From NCBI RefSeq assembly GCF_001999905.1, contig NZ_CP019640.1, positions 1,106,501-1,170,500 of the forward strand: DNA of 64,000 nucleotides. The letters run 5' to 3'. Positions within the stretch are counted from its first letter, which is position 1. Every line of letters starts with the position of its first letter. Shown one piece after another: positions 1 to 7,952 of this stretch. The notes beneath the pieces are model-generated. The model saw only the letters and a program-made list of their open reading frames with translations. It ran no database searches and was not told the DNA's origin. A program made the position numbers and the translations under genes. Source of the stretch: Planococcus lenghuensis. Its GTDB lineage: Bacteria; Bacillota; Bacilli; Bacillales_A; Planococcaceae.

Positions 1-205
1 ATGCGCCGGCTTTTTCGATTTCATCAATGGAAGCCTCACCGCTGACAGCGACTTTAGCGGCACCGAAATTCACTTTTGCTTCCCTTACCCCGGGAAGGTT
101 TTGCACATTCCGCTCAAACTGAGCGGCACAACTGGCTCAGGATAAACCTTGAACGCGATAAACTGTGCGATTCTGTTCATTGATGGTTGCCGTATTAGCT
201 GCCAT
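1..205 (-). CDS. cadA: CadA-type heavy-metal P-type ATPase, N-terminus only, with in-frame UGA
   Basis: This would be the Cd/Zn/Pb efflux P1B-type ATPase of the inner membrane. Only the first 68 codons are in the window; the rest lies beyond position 1. The start ATG at 205-203 overlaps the end of cadC by 11 bp, the usual cadCA arrangement. Translation gives a heavy-metal-associated (HMA) domain: VYRVQGLS, then UGA at 139-137, then [11 protein letters not shown] and an ending KVNFGAAKV. In CadA proteins the UGA position is the first Cys of the metal-binding CxxC. The frame is otherwise intact on both sides and keeps family residues, so decay is not advanced. It may be a selenocysteine codon (a hairpin follows), a recent one-base nonsense mutation or a sequencing error. 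A GTG at 106-104 could start a form lacking the motif, but it has no good ribosome site. Confidence 0.75.
110..126 (-). promoter_or_regulatory. SECIS-like hairpin just after the cadA UGA
   Basis: On the minus strand, 10 nt after the UGA codon, CCGCTC (126-121) and GAGCGG (115-110) form a perfect 6-bp stem around the loop AGTTT. The loop begins 16 nt after the UGA and has G in its second position. Bacterial SECIS elements have a short stem-loop within the coding sequence about this distance after UGA, with G in the first two loop positions. The fit is suggestive; a stem of this size can arise by chance. Confidence 0.4.
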
Positions 206-563
206 GGATTCCCGCCTCCTTTCGGTGATCAAGGGCGATGAGGAGCAATTGCCGGATATGATCATCATCCAGGGAATAAAAGGCGAGCTTGCCGTCTTTC
301 CGGTGTTTGGCAAGTCCCATTGTCTTCATCGCCCGGAGATGATGGGAAGCGGTAGCGACGGATGAACCGATGATGTTTGCAATATCACATACACATAATT
401 CATCTTCTTCACATAGAGCGAATGCAATCTTTGCACGGTTTTCATCACCAAGGACCTTGAAGATTTTTGCCATTCCAGTGATGTCTTCCTGTTTAATCCG
501 GTCTTGGGTCCGGGCAACCACTTCTTCATTAAAGCAATACACTTCACAGCTGTCTTTTTGCAC
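195..563 (-). CDS. cadC: CadC, ArsR/SmtB-family metal-sensing repressor
   Basis: Winged-helix repressor that leaves DNA when it binds Cd, Pb or Zn, controlling the cadA gene behind it. From the GTG at 563 the product is 122 aa, the length of the plasmid-type CadC. An in-frame ATG at 581 exists, but the strong AAGGAGG at 578-572 lies inside that extension and 8 nt before the GTG, so the GTG is preferred. Family features seen: N-terminal DSCEVYC, ENRAKI, the metal-site motif ELCVCDIANI, the recognition-helix region SSVATASHHLRAM and the C-terminal DDDHIRQLLLIALDHRKE. Four Cys (near residues 6, 10 and in LCVC) match the thiolate metal site of CadC. It forms an operon with the overlapping cadA. 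Confidence 0.93.
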   Translation of the reverse strand: MQKDSCEVYCFNEEVVARTQDRIKQEDITGMAKIFKVLGDENRAKIAFALCEEDELCVCDIANIIGSSVATASHHLRAMKTMGLAKHRKDGKLAFYSLDDDHIRQLLLIALDHRKEAGIHGS

Positions 564-581
564 CTCAAGCACCTCCTTCAT

Positions 582-1289: not shown

Positions 1290-1568
1290 GTGGAAAAAAC
1301 AACCATTCAGCCGAACAAGCAGCAGCTGCTCAACCGCCTGAAACGCATTGAAGGGCAAGTGCGCGGTGTCCACCAGATGGTGGATAATGACCGGTATTGT
1401 GTGGACATTCTGCACCAGATCAGTGCGATTCAATCCGCCATGAATAAAGTATCGCTGGCACTCCTTGAAGATCATGCGCATCATTGTGTGATGAATGCTG
1501 TTCAGAATGGGAACGGGGACGAAGCAATCAGCGAACTGATGGATGTCATGAAAACGATGACTAAGTAA
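1290..1568 (+). CDS. csoR: CsoR, copper-sensing transcriptional repressor
   Basis: Cytoplasmic all-helical repressor that binds Cu(I) and releases the cop promoter. 92 aa from a GTG start at 1290, preceded by AAGAGGTGG. The Cu(I) ligand set is complete: Cys37 in RYCVDIL, and His62 and Cys66 in EDHAHHCV, as in characterised CsoR proteins. The N-terminal LLNRLKRIEGQVRGV signature is that of the CsoR/RcnR family. The Cys-His-Cys pattern separates it from nickel (RcnR) and persulfide (CstR) sensors. First gene of the copper operon, 20 bp before copZ. Confidence 0.95.
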   Translation: MEKTTIQPNKQQLLNRLKRIEGQVRGVHQMVDNDRYCVDILHQISAIQSAMNKVSLALLEDHAHHCVMNAVQNGNGDEAISELMDVMKTMTK

Positions 1569-1588
1569 AAAAACGGGAGGAATTTATC

Positions 1589-1792
1589 ATGAACGAAACA
1601 TTGAAAGTACAAGGAATGTCTTGCGGTCATTGCGTCAATGCTGTAGAAACAAGCGTGGGAGAACTTCAAGGCGTCTCCAATGTGAAAGTGGACCTCGATA
1701 AAGGGGAAGTTGCAGTTGCTTACGACAACAGCACCACGTCACTTGCGGAAATTAAAGAAACAATCGAAGATCAGGGATACGACGTCGTCTGA
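1589..1792 (+). CDS. copZ: CopZ copper chaperone
   Basis: 67-aa single HMA domain that carries Cu(I) to the N-terminal domains of CopA. Metal motif GMSCGHC at residues 9-15 and the usual ending DQGYDVV. ATG preceded by GGGAGGAATTT. It lies between csoR and copA, as in other Bacillales; copA also seems to have its own promoter in the following gap. Confidence 0.95.
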   Translation: MNETLKVQGMSCGHCVNAVETSVGELQGVSNVKVDLDKGEVAVAYDNSTTSLAEIKETIEDQGYDVV

Positions 1793-1806
1793 TCGGGCAT
1801 AGATCA

Positions 1807-1835
1807 TTGAGAGAGATCGTACCAGGGGGTATGGT
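1807..1835 (+). promoter_or_regulatory. second CsoR-controlled promoter, directly before copA
   Basis: In the 96-bp gap between copZ and copA, TTGAGA (1807-1812) and TATGGT (1830-1835) are spaced by 17 nt. The spacer and -10 contain TACC-AGGG-GGTA (1820-1831), close to the B. subtilis copZA CsoR operator with its central GGGGGTATGG. Repressor bound here would sit between -35 and -10. A looser ATACCCC lies at 1854-1860. Confidence 0.55.
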
Positions 1836-1888
1836 CTTTCTTTGAATTGAAAATATACCCCTGTTATGTATGGATAGGAGGGACGGAC

Positions 1889-4309
1889 ATGGCAACTCAG
1901 GAAAAAACATTCCAAATCAGCGGCATGACATGCGCAGCCTGCGCCAATCGAATTGAAAAAGGCTTATCGAGAATGGAAGGCGTTGAAAAGGCGAACGTCA
2001 ATTTGGCATTGGAGCGATCAACGATTGTATATGATCCTGAAAAACGAAATGTGCAGGATTTTAAGGAAAAAGTGGAGAAGCTCGGATACGGCGTAGTGGA
2101 AGAAAAAGCGGAATTCGATGTAACGGGTATGACATGTGCAGCCTGCGCCGCCAGAATTGAGAAGCGGCTTAATAAGATGGAAGGCGTCTCACATGCCAAT
2201 GTCAATCTGGCGCTTGAGACAGCCGTCGTGGAGTATGATGCAGCTCAAGTAAAAGCGGCTGACATGATGGAAGTCGTCAAAAAACTGGGGTATGGACTCG
2301 TCGCCAAACAGGACAACCAGGAGAAACTGGATTATAAAGAGCAGGAGATCCGAAAGCAGACAAGACGCTTTGTGCTGTCACTTATCCTGACGCTGCCGCT
2401 GATCTGGACGATGGTTGCACATTTCGAGTTCCTGTCATTCCTGTACGTGCCGATGTTCCTCTTGAATCCATGGGTACAGTTTGCTTTTGCGGCACCGGTG
2501 CAGTTCATCGTTGGGGCCCGTTTTTATGAAGGCGCTTATAAAGCGCTTCGCAGCGGAAGTGCCAATATGGACGTGCTCGTCGCATTGGGGACAAGTGCCG
2601 CCTTCTTCTATAGCTTCTATTTGACGATTGAATGGACGCTGGCTGGAAGCGTCGGCATGGCGGAACTTTATTATGAAGCTTCGGCTGTGATCATTACACT
2701 TATTGTGCTCGGCAAACTCTTTGAAGCGCGGGCAAAGGGCAAAACAAGCCAGGCCATTCAGAAACTGCTTGGTCTGCAGGCGAAGACTGCCCGTGTGATT
2801 CGCGATGGAGAACAAGTGGAAGTGCCGGTTGAGCAAGTGGCGGCTGGAGATATTCTCCTTGTTAAACCGGGCGAAAAAATCCCGGTTGATGCTGAAGTGC
2901 TTGAAGGACGATCGGCTGTGGATGAATCGATGCTGACAGGCGAAAGTGTGCCGGTCGATAAAGCGGCAGGGGATGCCGTCATTGGTGCCACCATCAATAA
3001 AAACGGTTCGCTGACGTTAAAAGCGGTAAAAGTCGGCAAAGATACAGCACTTGCACAGATTGTGAAAGTAGTGGAAGATGCACAGGGCTCAAAGGCGGAT
3101 ATCCAGCGGCTTGCCGACCGGATATCCGGCGTGTTTGTTCCTGTAGTGGTCGGGTTTGCAGCAGTTACGTTCCTGGTCTGGTTCTTTATTGTAGCGCCAG
3201 GAAATTTCAGTGCAGCATTGATTCCGACCATTTCCATTCTCGTTATTGCCTGTCCATGTGCACTCGGTCTTGCAACACCGACGTCCATCATGGCCGGCTC
3301 CGGCAGGGCTGCAGAGATGGGTCTGCTGTTTAAAGGCGGCGAGTATTTGGAAAATACCCAGTCAATCGATACGATTGTTTTAGACAAAACCGGTACGGTG
3401 ACCAAAGGCGAACCGGCGTTGACTGATGTTTCCGTCACAGCCGATTTTACGGAAGAAGAAGTGCTGCGGCTGATCGGTTCCGCCGAAAACGCTTCTGAGC
3501 ATCCGCTTGCTCAGGCAATTGTGAACGGTGTAAAGGATCGGGGAATCACACTTGCACAGCCGACAGACTTTGAAGCATTGCCAGGCTATGGAATCCGGGC
3601 AGTCGTGGAAGGCAAAGAATTATTTGCCGGCACAAGAAAGTTGCTGACAGAGCAGGCGATCGAAATTGCGGAAGCCGAAAATCTCATGGAAGAATTGGAA
3701 CGTGAAGGGAAAACGGCGATGCTGCTTGCCGTTGATGGAAAAGTGGCAGGTGTCATTGCCGTGGCTGATACGATCAAAGAAACTTCGAAAGAAGCGATCA
3801 GCCGGCTTCAAAAACTGGGACTGCAAGTCATCATGCTGACGGGTGACAATAGCCGGACTGCTCAAGCGATTGCGAAGCAAGTCGGCATTACAGAAGTGAT
3901 TGCGGAAGTGCTGCCGGAACAGAAAAGCGAACAGATTAAGAAACTCCAGGCCACTGGTAAGAAAGTTGCGATGGTTGGGGACGGTATTAACGATGCACCG
4001 GCTCTTGCCACAGCGGATATCGGCATGGCTGTTGGCACCGGTACGGACATCGCGATTGAAGCGGCGGACGTGACATTGATGCGCGGAGATCTGAACAGCG
4101 CAGCAGATGCAGTCATCATGAGCCGGAAGACGATGCGCAATATCAAGCAAAACCTGTTCTTTGCGTTCATCTATAACACAATCGGGATTCCGATTGCAGC
4201 AATCGGCCTGCTTGCTCCATGGGTGGCCGGCGCTGCAATGGCGTTCAGTTCTGTATCTGTTGTGCTGAATGCCTTACGTCTCCAACGAACAGATCTTGCA
4301 AGACACTGA
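1889..4309 (+). CDS. copA: CopA, Cu(I)-exporting P1B-type ATPase
   Basis: Pumps Cu(I) out of the cytoplasm using ATP. 806 aa from ATG 1889, chosen because AGGAGGG lies 6 nt before it; upstream codons are not family-like. Two N-terminal HMA domains carry GMTCAAC at about residues 12-18 and 80-86. Eight membrane segments follow, with the ion-binding CPC at 455-457, the actuator TGES loop, the phosphorylation site D499 in DKTGT, the nucleotide-binding SEHPL and the hinge GDGIND around D698. Full length for a Bacillales CopA. It receives copper from CopZ. A symmetric terminator follows the stop. Confidence 0.97.
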
Positions 4310-4320
4310 AACCTCCTGAA

Positions 4321-4361
4321 AAAATCCCTGCAGGCAGAGAATCTTGCCTGCAGGGATTTTT
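4321..4361. terminator. bidirectional terminator between copA and the convergent Csp gene
   Basis: AAAATCCC...GGCA (4321-4336) pairs perfectly with TGCC...GGGATTTT (4345-4360), with A-run and T-run on opposite sides, so it can stop both copA and the leftward gene. Confidence 0.85.
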
Positions 4362-4389
4362 GGTGGTTCCGTTTTGGTGGTTCCGGTAA

Positions 4390-4722
4390 TTATGCGATTG
4401 TTCTGCAGGCTTCTGCACAGCGGCGGCAAGCTTCCGCACAGCGCATGCAATGATCGTGGTGTCCGTGTTTTTCACATTCATCCGCACAGGTATCACAGAC
4501 TTCCGCACAATAGCCGGCAAGCCGGACATGGAATTGCGAGTTTCTGGCGACGGCTTGTTCAGTGAATGCACATGTGTCTGCGCAGTCCCGTGCCAGCCGG
4601 ATTGCATTTGAAAGCATATCCAAATGCTCCGTATCATTCAGGCATTCATCAAAGCAAATATTGCAATGCAGTGAGCAGTCATGCAAGGCCTGGATCAATT
4701 CCTGATGATGTTCATGTGCCAT
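4390..4722 (-). CDS. Csp-type four-helix copper-storage protein (DUF326)
   Basis: 110 aa with 15 Cys, many spaced CxxxC along helices, as in cytosolic copper-storage proteins (Csp3-like) that line a four-helix bundle with thiolates to hold Cu(I). Typical stretches: HEHHQELIQALHDC, CFDECL, CADTCAFTEQAVARN, CAEVCDTCADEC and a final CxRCAEAC repeat, with His-rich HGHHDHC. The ATG at 4722 has GGAGG 6 nt upstream; a longer frame to 4761 has no such site. No signal peptide, so cytosolic. Convergent with copA; functionally it would buffer copper handled by CopZ/CopA. Confidence 0.9.
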   Translation of the reverse strand: MAHEHHQELIQALHDCSLHCNICFDECLNDTEHLDMLSNAIRLARDCADTCAFTEQAVARNSQFHVRLAGYCAEVCDTCADECEKHGHHDHCMRCAEACRRCAEACRTIA

Positions 4723-4757
4723 CAATATCCCTCCACTTATAGTTTTTAATAGAATTA

Positions 4758-4913
4758 TCATGCGGCGTTTCTGCAGACTTCCGCTTACTCTTTACAAGGC
4801 TCATATTCAGTGAATGCACAGGCAACAGCACATTCAAGGTTCAGTCCGATACATTCGGCCATCATTCAAGCTGCGATGCAATCACGCAGAACTTAAATCA
4901 ATTCATCCTGTTT
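4758..4913 (-). pseudogene. decayed second copy of the Csp/DUF326 gene
   Basis: Reading leftward from 4913, one frame gives KQDELI, stop (TAA 4895-4893), VLRDCIAA, stop (TGA 4868-4866), MMAECIGLNLECAVACAF, TEYEPCKE, stop (TAA) and AEVCRNAA. These are recognisable DUF326 blocks in the right order. The segment that normally carries CxxCFxACL is deleted, and so is most of the C-terminal Cys repeat. Three in-frame stops and two deletions make it a dead paralogue of the intact copy just downstream. The rest of the gap to 5075 contains only AT-rich sequence with a possible -10 (TAAGAT, 5027-5032) for the next gene. Confidence 0.75.
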
Positions 4914-5075
4914 AGTTTTCTGTCTTCCCTTTCTCGGGGAATTTAAACTGAAAGTTCAGAATGTAAAGAATTCTAATTTGCAGGAAGTATTCATCACCGC
5001 TTCATACTTTCTTCAAATTTATCATGTAAGATAGCAACAGTGGAACAGCTGTTAGATGCAGAGGAGGCAATCAAC

Positions 5076-6116
5076 GTGAGAAAAATATCAAAGGCACTGT
5101 TGATCGGAGTAACGACGATGAGTTTGGCAGCATGCACAGAGACTGAAGAAGCCGTACAGACAGAAGAAGTTGCTGCAGAAGAAGAAAATGAAAACGAAGT
5201 TACAGAAGAAGTCGAAGAAGCTGAAGCCGAAACAGAAGAAGTTCAGGAATCAGCTGAGGTGGCGGCGGAACAAGTAACACCGGAAGAAAGCGAGATTGAG
5301 CTGACGCATATTCATGGGCTTGGAATCACCGAAGAGGAAGGGGCTCTGTATGTACCTTCCCATCATGGTTTGATGGTGTTTAAAGAAGGCGTCTGGAGTG
5401 CGGCAGAAGGGGAAACGCACGATTATATGGGATTCGCCATGGTTGATAATGGCTTCTACACGAGCGGGCACCCGGGAGAAGGTTCAGAGCTGGCCAATCC
5501 GTTCGGTGTCAGCCGGTCAACGGATATGGGCCAAACACTTGAAATGCTTGATCTGTATAAAGAAATTGATTTCCATGTGATGGATGTCGGCTATGACTCC
5601 CATGCCATTTATGTCGTGAACCCGCAGCCGAATTCCCGGATGGATCAGGCAGGTATCCATTATTCGATAGATGATGCGGAGACGTGGACTTACAGTGCAG
5701 CAGAAGGGCTTGAGGGTCAGCTGATGTCGATCGGCGTACATCCGGCTGACGAAGCGGTAGTGGCAGCCGGAACGGATCAAGGGGTATTTGTATCAGAAGA
5801 CTACGGCCAATCCTTTGAAGCGATCTCCGATGTGCCGACGACGGCCGTTACATTTTCTCCTGAAGGAACATTATTCACCGGTGGAGTGACGAATGCTTTT
5901 ACATTGACAGCGTTCGATATTACTACAGGGGAACAGACCGATTTTGCAATTCCTGAACTATCCGGTCAGAATGCGATTGGCTACATTGCAATCAATCCGC
6001 AGAATGAGCAAGAGATTTACTTCTCGACGTTTGAAAAGGACATCTATTTGTCAGAGGACGGCGGAGAAACATGGACGCAAATTGCAGATAAAGGCATTGG
6101 AATCGACTTCCGCTAA
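5076..6116 (+). CDS. Asp-box/BNR-repeat lipoprotein (F510_1955-type 'glycosylhydrolase' family), copy 1
   Basis: 346 aa from GTG 5076, preceded by GAGGAGG. The signal peptide ends in the lipobox MSLAAC (Cys20), so it is a lipid-anchored extracellular protein. A very acidic linker (about residues 21-75, mostly E, T, V, A) leads into a beta-propeller-like domain that starts with HIHGLG. Asp-box motifs are STDMGQT, SIDDAETW, SEDYGQS and SEDGGETW. Database names call the family a glycosyl hydrolase, but I see no catalytic evidence. Conserved His and Met ([27 protein letters not shown]) and its place behind the cop operon suggest extracytoplasmic metal handling. It is paralogous to the gene at 6930. 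Confidence 0.8.
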   Translation: MRKISKALLIGVTTMSLAACTETEEAVQTEEVAAEEENENEVTEEVEEAEAETEEVQESAEVAAEQVTPEESEIELTHIHGLGITEEEGALYVPSHHGLMVFKEGVWSAAEGETHDYMGFAMVDNGFYTSGHPGEGSELANPFGVSRSTDMGQTLEMLDLYKEIDFHVMDVGYDSHAIYVVNPQPNSRMDQAGIHYSIDDAETWTYSAAEGLEGQLMSIGVHPADEAVVAAGTDQGVFVSEDYGQSFEAISDVPTTAVTFSPEGTLFTGGVTNAFTLTAFDITTGEQTDFAIPELSGQNAIGYIAINPQNEQEIYFSTFEKDIYLSEDGGETWTQIADKGIGIDFR

Positions 6117-6135
6117 AGAAACTGCAGTCTCATAA

Positions 6136-6171
6136 AAATAAGGACAGCCGGAAATTCCGGCTGTCCTTATT
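6136..6171. terminator. bidirectional terminator
   Basis: Near-perfect palindrome with arms containing GGACAGCCGG and CCGGCTGTCC, flanked by AATAA and TTATT. It lies between two convergent genes. Confidence 0.8.
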
Positions 6172-6181
6172 ACTGTCCTCA

Positions 6182-6643
6182 TTACTCGTCTTCCTCTTCT
6201 TCAAGATCATCGATCAATTTTTTCATTTTTGCAATCTCTTCGCGCTGGGCTTTAATGATATCCTGAGCCAGTTGTTCAACGCGCGGATCCGAAATTTCTG
6301 CCCGTTCACTGGTCAGAATCGCAATGGAATGATGGGGAATCATCGCTTGCATGTAGTCCACGTCATCGATTGTCGCTTGATTGCGTGCGAGCCAAAAAGA
6401 CCCGATAATCAGAAGGGCGCTTACGGCGTAAATGGCTATGTTCATTTTCTTGTTTGTATACATATGCCGCATAAATGCCAGCATGACAATGGCCATGACG
6501 CCGCCCATATAAACTGCCATGTAAGTTCTCATTTCACTGAAAAATATATGATCCCATCGGTAAACGGTTGAATACATCAATCCGTACATTATGACGGTTG
6601 CTGTCAACACCATCGCAAAAAATACTAAGTATTTTTTCTTCAT
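6182..6643 (-). CDS. DUF305-domain membrane protein
   Basis: 153 aa; ATG at 6643 with AAAGGAGTG upstream. Three transmembrane helices (about 5-25, 42-60, 68-87) precede a C-terminal DUF305 segment with the hallmark MQAMIPHHSIAI near residues 98-109 and a helical, acidic tail (KLIDDLEEEEDE). DUF305 is a ferritin-like helical domain found in copper-tolerance proteins such as CopM. The Met/His cluster is a plausible copper ligand. It is transcribed toward the lipoprotein at 5076 and away from its paralogue at 6930. Confidence 0.85.
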   Translation of the reverse strand: MKKKYLVFFAMVLTATVIMYGLMYSTVYRWDHIFFSEMRTYMAVYMGGVMAIVMLAFMRHMYTNKKMNIAIYAVSALLIIGSFWLARNQATIDDVDYMQAMIPHHSIAILTSERAEISDPRVEQLAQDIIKAQREEIAKMKKLIDDLEEEEDE

Positions 6644-6830
6644 TATCAGTTACACTCCTTTCTTTAAAATAGATTTTACTAGAATAATAATTTAATTATT
6701 CATTTCCCTTAGAGAGATCAATTAAACAAAAGTTGTGCCGCGGTTTTCTGCAGGATTAATATTCAGCTGGTTTAACCTAAGGGTCCGGTCTGTGCCGAAA
6801 GGCGGTTCCCGTCACAGAATTTCCCCAGTT

Positions 6831-6852
6831 TTTCTGTCATTCAGCACAGAAA
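6831..6852. promoter_or_regulatory. inverted repeat in the divergent intergenic region
   Basis: The 286-bp gap between the divergent DUF305 and second lipoprotein genes (6644-6929) contains TTTCTGT (6831-6837) and ACAGAAA (6846-6852), an exact 7-bp inverted repeat with 8-nt spacer. TTAAGAT lies a few bases downstream (6857-6863), possibly a -10. The regulator is unknown. Nothing else recognisable was seen in the gap. Confidence 0.35.
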
Positions 6853-6929
6853 TCGGTTAAGATAAGGGATGGTCAAAAGTCTGATGAATTTATGTGTAAG
6901 AGTGGAAGTGAAAGAGGGGTCAAGAAACC

Positions 6930-7952
6930 ATGAAGAGAAAGCTGATCGTGTTGCTAACGCTGGCAGCAGCATTGATCTCCGGCTGTTCCAATTTAGAAGC
7001 GGCAGACGAAGAAACAGCATCTGAAATCACGTTTGTTAAAGAAGAGAGAACCGATGCAGCGGTCGCTGCTGACAGCAACAGTAGTCAGCGTCAAACAGAA
7101 GCGGAACCGGTAACTGTAGAGAGCGGAATAGCCATGCAGCACGTTCATGGCTTAGGTGTATCCGGGGATGGGACTGAAGTATATGTCCCGGCACATGCCG
7201 GACTGAAAATATACAAAAGCGGAAGATGGACAGAGACCAGTGGGGCGTTGCATGATTACATGGGCTTTTCCATGGTGGATGACGGATTCTACAGCAGCGG
7301 TCATCCGGGGGAAGAGTCGGATTTAGCTGATCCTTTCGGTATTGTCCGTTCTGTTGATATGGGAGAATCGCTGGTTCTGCTTGATCTGTATGAAGAAGTG
7401 GATTTTCACCTAATGTCTGCAGGTTATTATTCCCATGTAATATATGCTGTAAATCCGAAGCCGAATTCCCGAATGGAAGAAGCGGGAATTTACTACTCAA
7501 CTAACGATGCGCAAACATGGAAAAAAAGCGGTGGAGAAGGCCTGAAAGGTCAGTTAGTCACGATTGATGTTCATCCGGATGATGAAGCCATCGTTGCCAT
7601 TGGAACAGACCGGGGCGTTTTTGTTTCGGTAAACCATGGTCAGGACTTCAAGGCGGTGACGGACGCACCGGTCTCAGCGATCGCATTTTCCCCACAAGGG
7701 AATTTGCTGGCAGCCAGTGAATCTGATTCTCCTGGACTGCAAGTGATCGATCTAAAGACAAAAAAAGGGAGTGTTCTGCCCTTGCCGGATTTAGCAGAAG
7801 GAAATGACATCAACCACCTGGCGGTCAATCCGGAGAATGACGGAAATGTCGTTTTTTCAACCATAGAAAGTGATATCTATATTTCTGAGGATAGCGGCAC
7901 AAGCTGGACCAAGATTGCACACAAAGGAAATGCATTGGATTTGAAGCAATAG
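6930..7952 (+). CDS. Asp-box/BNR-repeat lipoprotein, copy 2
   Basis: 340 aa; ATG 6930 with AAAGAGGGG upstream. Signal peptide with lipobox LISGC (Cys19). The propeller domain is plainly paralogous to the protein at 5076: [37 protein letters not shown]. Asp-boxes are [22 protein letters not shown] and SEDSGTSW. The linker is shorter and less acidic than in copy 1. Conserved His/Met positions are shared by both copies. An intramolecular or substrate role cannot be read from the sequence; metal-related function is inferred from position only. Confidence 0.8.

Follow-up and report, generated by a model that had tools for sequence, protein, structure and literature searches.

The cadA gene of Planococcus lenghuensis, which encodes a heavy-metal pump, almost certainly carries a selenocysteine (Sec) codon: judging from its sequence and that of its relatives, an in-frame UGA would be decoded by SelB and tRNA-Sec under the guidance of a hairpin located inside the gene itself. 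Conservation of the UGA, its link with SelB, the hairpin found in Bacilli and the interleaving of Sec and Cys forms argue together for a conserved selenoprotein gene, and not for a nonsense mutation or a read error.

The cadA gene and its in-frame UGA

The window analysed is a stretch of 64,000 nucleotides (G000:C1:1106501-1170500) within the 4.15-Mb genome of P. lenghuensis, and the features that concern us here lie at its left edge, all of them on the minus strand:

Window 1..205, minus strand: 5' part of cadA, with its ATG at 205..203 (translation and profiles); the gene runs past the window edge to G000:C1:1104567
Window 137..139, minus strand: UGA for the predicted selenocysteine 23, which opens the UxxC motif of the HMA domain (frame translation; same codon UGA in 41 of 146 homologous rows)
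Window 128..130, minus strand: TGT, the Cys that closes the UxxC motif (frame translation; Cys in the displayed UGA rows)
Window 110..126, minus strand: SECIS-like hairpin with a 6-7 bp stem, loop AGTTT/GTT and G at 119 (sequence, folding energy, covariation)
Window 195..581, minus strand: ArsR-family regulator with a CadC-like ELCVCDI motif (translation; Pfam HTH_5, 4.4e-13)

The whole cadA (L010:2567-4705, minus strand) comprises 712 codons plus the final stop, for a predicted protein of 712 residues with U23, and the only stop inside its frame is the UGA at codon 23, the remainder being open up to codon 712. As the original prediction held, this UGA (139..137) replaces the first Cys of the CadA CxxC motif, and the second Cys is intact. 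The protein scores above the cut-offs of TIGR01525 for heavy-metal P-type ATPases (619 bits, cut-off 346.25) and of TIGR01512 for cadmium-family P1B ATPases (535 bits, cut-off 313.5), and below those of the ZntA models NF008262 (653 bits, cut-off 1005) and NF033775 (563 bits, cut-off 1240). A Pfam scan, run with C substituted for U, revealed the HMA (residues 15-64), E1-E2_ATPase and Hydrolase domains. The gene thus shares its domains with the CadA/ZntA-type Cd/Zn/Pb ATPases, and shows 59-69% identity to named Cys homologues, but differs from those CxxC pumps in that its HMA motif starts with a UGA instead of a Cys codon. Two more profiles match the HMA region weakly, namely the UxxU metal-binding protein NF041115 (26.8 bits, below the cut-off of 95; 74 positions) and the MerTP fusion NF033556 (22.4 bits, below the cut-off of 180; 186 positions), neither of which is a profile of a full ATPase.

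There is no second close CadA in the genome, where the remaining matches are 30-40% identical, so that with a stop arising by accident the cell would lose this pump. A P1B ATPase match at G000:C1:2057473-2058899 is split in two pieces (query 117-483 and 491-605) in different frames, and is possibly a frameshifted pseudogene. Automatic annotation would be expected to truncate UGA-containing cadA genes at codon 23, or to place their start too late, in both cases hiding the metal-binding domain.

Selenocysteine machinery in the genome

As noted originally, the window itself has no sel genes. These are found elsewhere on the same contig, about 0.9 Mb from cadA, where tRNA-Sec, selA, selB and selD all occur. 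The tRNA-Sec at C1:2009425 (63.1 bits, cut-off 47) is the sole match above the cut-off, and ARAGORN also calls a tRNA-SeC (tca); SelB reaches 383 bits (cut-off 242) and SelA 490 bits. The original prediction had named the lack of selA, selB or tRNA-Sec as one possible refutation of the selenocysteine reading, which is supported by the presence of all three.

Other genes of this genome also carry an in-frame UGA. One of them is selD (L011:11237, plus strand), with the context SLSSKGG-U-GCKIGPEDL. Directly 3' of selA lies a thioredoxin/AhpC-TSA-like gene (L011:4875-5630, minus strand; G000:C1:2004875-2005630) with the context WASW-U-RC, whose product shows a weak TPR match and 117 bits to NF041054, under the cut-off of 300. 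From its sequence, this thioredoxin-like gene is likely a second selenoprotein. A hairpin is predicted after the UGA of both genes. The one formate dehydrogenase alpha match above the cut-off has no in-frame stop. As a point against Sec in CadA, selD and the thioredoxin-like gene might by themselves suffice to maintain the machinery.

The UGA in homologues and its association with SelB

Homologues came from 101 relatives, 80 named loci and a draw of 299 genomes across the phylum. From the relatives we fetched the 30 best matches together with the other listed matches that had a stop, and from the 299-genome draw 18 further listed UGA matches and 20 hand-chosen places, 19 of which were matches without UGA. 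This gave 146 distinct rows covering the motif, 41 in which codon 23 is UGA and 105 in which it is TGT or TGC (144 rows without two Cys rows, L001 and L136, that are paralogues); the UGA rows were deliberately sought, so their number is no measure of natural frequency. In the UGA rows, the in-frame UGA falls at the first CxxC position, opposite Cys in the homologues. Twenty-five of them belong to Bacilli, including Indiicoccus, Bacillus infantis, Neobacillus niacini, Evansella clarkii, two Aquibacillus, Salinibacillus, Sediminibacillus and Mesobacillus, and the other 16 to further classes of the phylum.

A single base change would be enough to turn an ordinary CxxC cadA into the observed gene, either by nonsense mutation or through a sequencing error, and most rows do keep Cys at codon 23. 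We nevertheless give this explanation hardly any credit. The codon is the identical UGA in all 41 rows, every one of them from a SelB-positive genome, and the rest of the P. lenghuensis frame is open. A read error is implausible, since the UGA is shared by Indiicoccus explosivorum (L053/L013), a relative of the same genus with about 75% identity, as well as by 39 further rows.

SelB was found above its cut-off in 41 of 41 genomes with the UGA form, compared with 33 of 101 genomes with the Cys form (Fisher p 2e-15, a figure that ignores kinship and row selection). Among the 101 relatives, which were not chosen for the trait, SelB occurs in 22, and a UGA-CadA is present in 15 of these and absent in the other seven; among the matches listed, no UGA-CadA was found in the 79 SelB-negative relatives. 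A comparison of phylogenetically independent pairs was not significant (median p 0.125), with few informative pairs and none opposite in direction.

UGA readthrough is known in bacteria, and the codon might in principle be read as Trp or Cys through a suppressor tRNA or leaky decoding. This is very improbable: the genome has a tRNA-Sec with anticodon tca, and both the tie with SelB and the hairpin downstream fit Sec insertion. A Mycoplasma-like reassignment of UGA was rejected, since the gene has a single UGA and this is tied to SelB.

A UGA so early in the gene could also have another meaning. Under low selenium it would end a 22-residue leader, an HMA-less pump would then be made from a downstream start, and the codon would mainly work as a selenium-dependent regulatory switch. 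P1B pumps are able to work as transporters when the N-terminal domain is missing. The UGA rows, however, retain the HMA sequence past the UGA, second Cys included, and the read-through product therefore seems to be under selection, so that we regard the leader as improbable and prefer the reading of the UGA as Sec.

A few rows depart from the common pattern. In two homologues (from G382 and G177) the UGA lies elsewhere in the gene and codon 23 specifies Cys; a SelB search of their genomes at E 1e-60 found no match. One UGA-CadA (L129, from G066) contains an additional in-frame TAG, and may be a decaying copy or reflect a sequencing error. In an uncultured Planococcus, a Cys-form CadA (L118) shows an in-frame stop six residues ahead of its CxxC (NVY*LRNLSC), and an adjoining CadA copy on the same contig (L120) lacks such a stop.

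A hairpin downstream of the UGA

The hairpin of the P. lenghuensis gene, CCGCTC-AGTTT-GAGCGG (window 126..110, with A120 and T116 as a possible seventh pair), starts 10 nt 3' of the UGA and lies inside the coding sequence. Bacterial SECIS elements obey a rule of spacing from the UGA and of a G in the loop, and this gene follows it, with a hairpin just 3' of the UGA and a G early in the loop. The description given in the original prediction holds for the 10-nt distance, the 6-bp stem and the AGTTT loop with its G; the 16 nt stated there for the G applies to the base that opens the 5-nt loop, and 17 nt separate the UGA from the G itself (window 119).

The folding energy of the sequence after codon 23 was compared with that of synonymous-codon versions encoding the same peptide with the gene's own codon usage. 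For P. lenghuensis cadA, a 30-nt stretch gave p = 0.02 (0.023 in a repeat), and a 42-nt stretch gave p = 0.12, which is not significant. The weight of the hairpin evidence is in the family-wide result rather than in this one gene. At 30 nt, a first run returned p<0.05 for 24 of 25 Bacilli UGA rows compared with 4 of 84 Cys rows. In a repeat with 1000 versions this level was reached by 23 of the 25 UGA rows from Bacilli and 5 of the 16 from other classes, compared with 3 of 103 Cys rows. When all rows were run with 300 versions, the same threshold was passed by 29 of 41 UGA rows against 2 of 104 Cys rows at 30 nt, 22 against 3 (of the same 41 and 104) for a 33-nt stretch, and 23 against 8 at 42 nt, where the P. 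lenghuensis gene is among the 18 UGA misses. A control stretch beginning 60 nt downstream gave 4 of 41 UGA and 4 of 104 Cys rows. The structural signal is thus strong in Bacilli and thin in the other classes, whose hairpin may be longer or differently positioned.

Covariation was analysed for the hairpin type of the window and for a second type; a third type is that of the GTTCG...CGAAC rows. In the 10 rows with the window's type, 97.1% of cells are paired and three of the seven pairs are altered on both sides; the covariation score was reached by 0 of 500 shuffles, and the number of pair types by 126 of 500. The second type (8 rows) showed a weaker covariation, its five measures being reached by 28, 28, 24, 24 and 61 of 500 shuffles; with 24 shuffles at the covariation score, this is a moderately positive result beside the weak signal outside Bacilli.

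Altogether, the sequences support that the hairpin is under selection, at least in Bacilli, in a way that the peptide does not account for. An excess over coding need that appears in the Bacilli UGA rows and not in Cys rows is a further argument against an accidental stop, and the homologues do not show the uniform Cys without a conserved stem that would have spoken against the original prediction. That the hairpin signal is carried by the Bacilli rows does not affect the odds of the Sec reading, which is carried by the position of the UGA and by SelB.

Interleaved Sec and Cys forms

UGA-bearing rows lie scattered among Cys rows on the tree. We built a 50-row tree from the 25 Bacilli UGA rows and 25 hand-chosen Cys rows, omitting the first 80 residues, and a single clade of the UGA forms was rejected on it (p-AU 1.2e-05). 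The best tree has 10 changes between UGA and Cys, at least 8 of them forced by starred branches. A FastTree of 145 rows, which retained the HMA columns and carries a warning of long branches meeting, shows 15 changes, at least 10 forced; the change counts on both trees cannot separate gain from loss.

The most instructive pair of the two forms is that of Halalkalibacter okhensis (L063; Cys, SelB present) and Evansella clarkii (L069; UGA). Over 2139 nt their genes reach 98.9% identity, and of the 23 differences three fall in codons 23-25; the 599 nt upstream of the gene are 79% identical. In the Cys copy the hairpin sequence is largely preserved, its closing arm being altered once, and this row provides one of the three significant folds among the Cys rows. 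Taken together, this suggests that Cys may recently have replaced Sec. This natural pair offers a clean basis for asking what selenium contributes at a metal-binding site.

Relation to known selenoproteins

The original prediction presented Sec in such an ATPase as remarkable, and this overstated its novelty. The UxxC cation-transporting ATPase already stands among the predicted selenoprotein families (PMC9312934, PMC13188914, PMC5029168), so that P. lenghuensis cadA would be a member of a kind of selenoprotein predicted before. In the available text of these and related surveys, the family is tallied in 2016 at 32 proteins in 25 organisms (PMC5029168), one sequence is recorded in ocean data (PMC2398784), three selenoproteins are counted in Bacillales in 2006 (PMC1794560), and the roles of such ATPase selenoproteins in heavy-metal detoxification are said to need further investigation (in one of PMC9312934 and PMC13188914). 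The portions available of PMC12013277 and PMC1242214 gave no match to ATPase or cadmium.

Like the UxxC cation-transporting ATPase E1-E2 family, whose named example is ABB15669.1, CadA is a P1B ATPase of TIGR01525 with UxxC. Unlike what the published accounts of that family contain, as far as their available text goes, it occurs in Bacilli as a CadA with an in-gene hairpin and with interleaved Sec and Cys forms. The family was reportedly first described in 2007. Among the open-licence PMC matches listed, we found no paper on a Sec-containing CadA in Bacilli, on its spread in Bacilli, on a codon-controlled test of the hairpin or on Sec/Cys pairs; members from Bacilli may be listed in the 2007 report or in supplementary tables, such as those of the 2016 survey. 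A family known mainly as an entry in lists of predicted selenoproteins thus gains strong sequence evidence and natural Sec/Cys pairs.

A possible role for selenocysteine in the pump

We infer Sec incorporation, the metal specificity of the pump and the benefit of the Sec form. The protein would be a P1B ATPase of the CadA type, with UxxC in place of CxxC in its N-terminal HMA metal-binding domain, and tRNA-Sec and SelB would insert Sec at the UGA as directed by the hairpin 10 nt downstream. Both motif residues of an HMA domain are metal ligands, and the selenolate would for this reason most likely tune soft-metal binding (Cd, Pb or Hg) by the regulatory domain of the pump, Sec acting as a metal ligand rather than as a catalytic redox residue.

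The main alternative for the role of Sec, a variant that shares its decoding, is a redox switch in which a selenenylsulfide with the second Cys would disarm the metal-binding domain on oxidation. Many predicted redox selenoproteins carry UxxC as their motif (PMC13188914, in its available part). In CadA, however, the motif lies in an HMA domain with two metal-binding residues, and we consider the switch possible but unlikely.

A tentative proposal extends this role to the whole of Bacillota: the regulatory domain of a soft-metal efflux pump would use Sec to bind metal and not for redox catalysis, so that selenium supply would set cadmium/zinc export. If true, cells with selenium would make a pump with a higher-affinity sensor site, and in cells without it translation would halt at codon 23. 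The recurrent swaps between Sec and Cys would in that case follow the chemistry of metals and selenium in the habitat.

Neighbouring genes

Upstream of cadA lies the gene of the ArsR-family regulator, the 3' end of which overlaps the cadA start. The order cadC-cadA is the usual one, and the CadC-like regulator suggests that expression may be induced by metal. Among rows with enough flank, 15 of 25 UGA rows (the other 10 lack it) and 74 of 83 Cys rows have a CadC-like motif in the 900 nt upstream.

To the right of cadA, window 1290-7952 appears to be a copper-handling neighbourhood, whose frames we take by translation to be a CsoR-like regulator, a CopZ-like chaperone, a CopA-like ATPase and a Cys-rich protein (4390-4761, minus strand). 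The CopZ-like small frame (GMSCGHC) and the CopA-like ATPase (GMTCAAC twice) have ordinary cysteines in their motifs. Also by translation, window 6182-6643 (minus strand) presumably encodes a DUF305-like protein, and 5040-6116 and 6930-7952 presumably correspond to two paralogous lipoprotein-like frames with a HIHGLG/HVHGLG motif.
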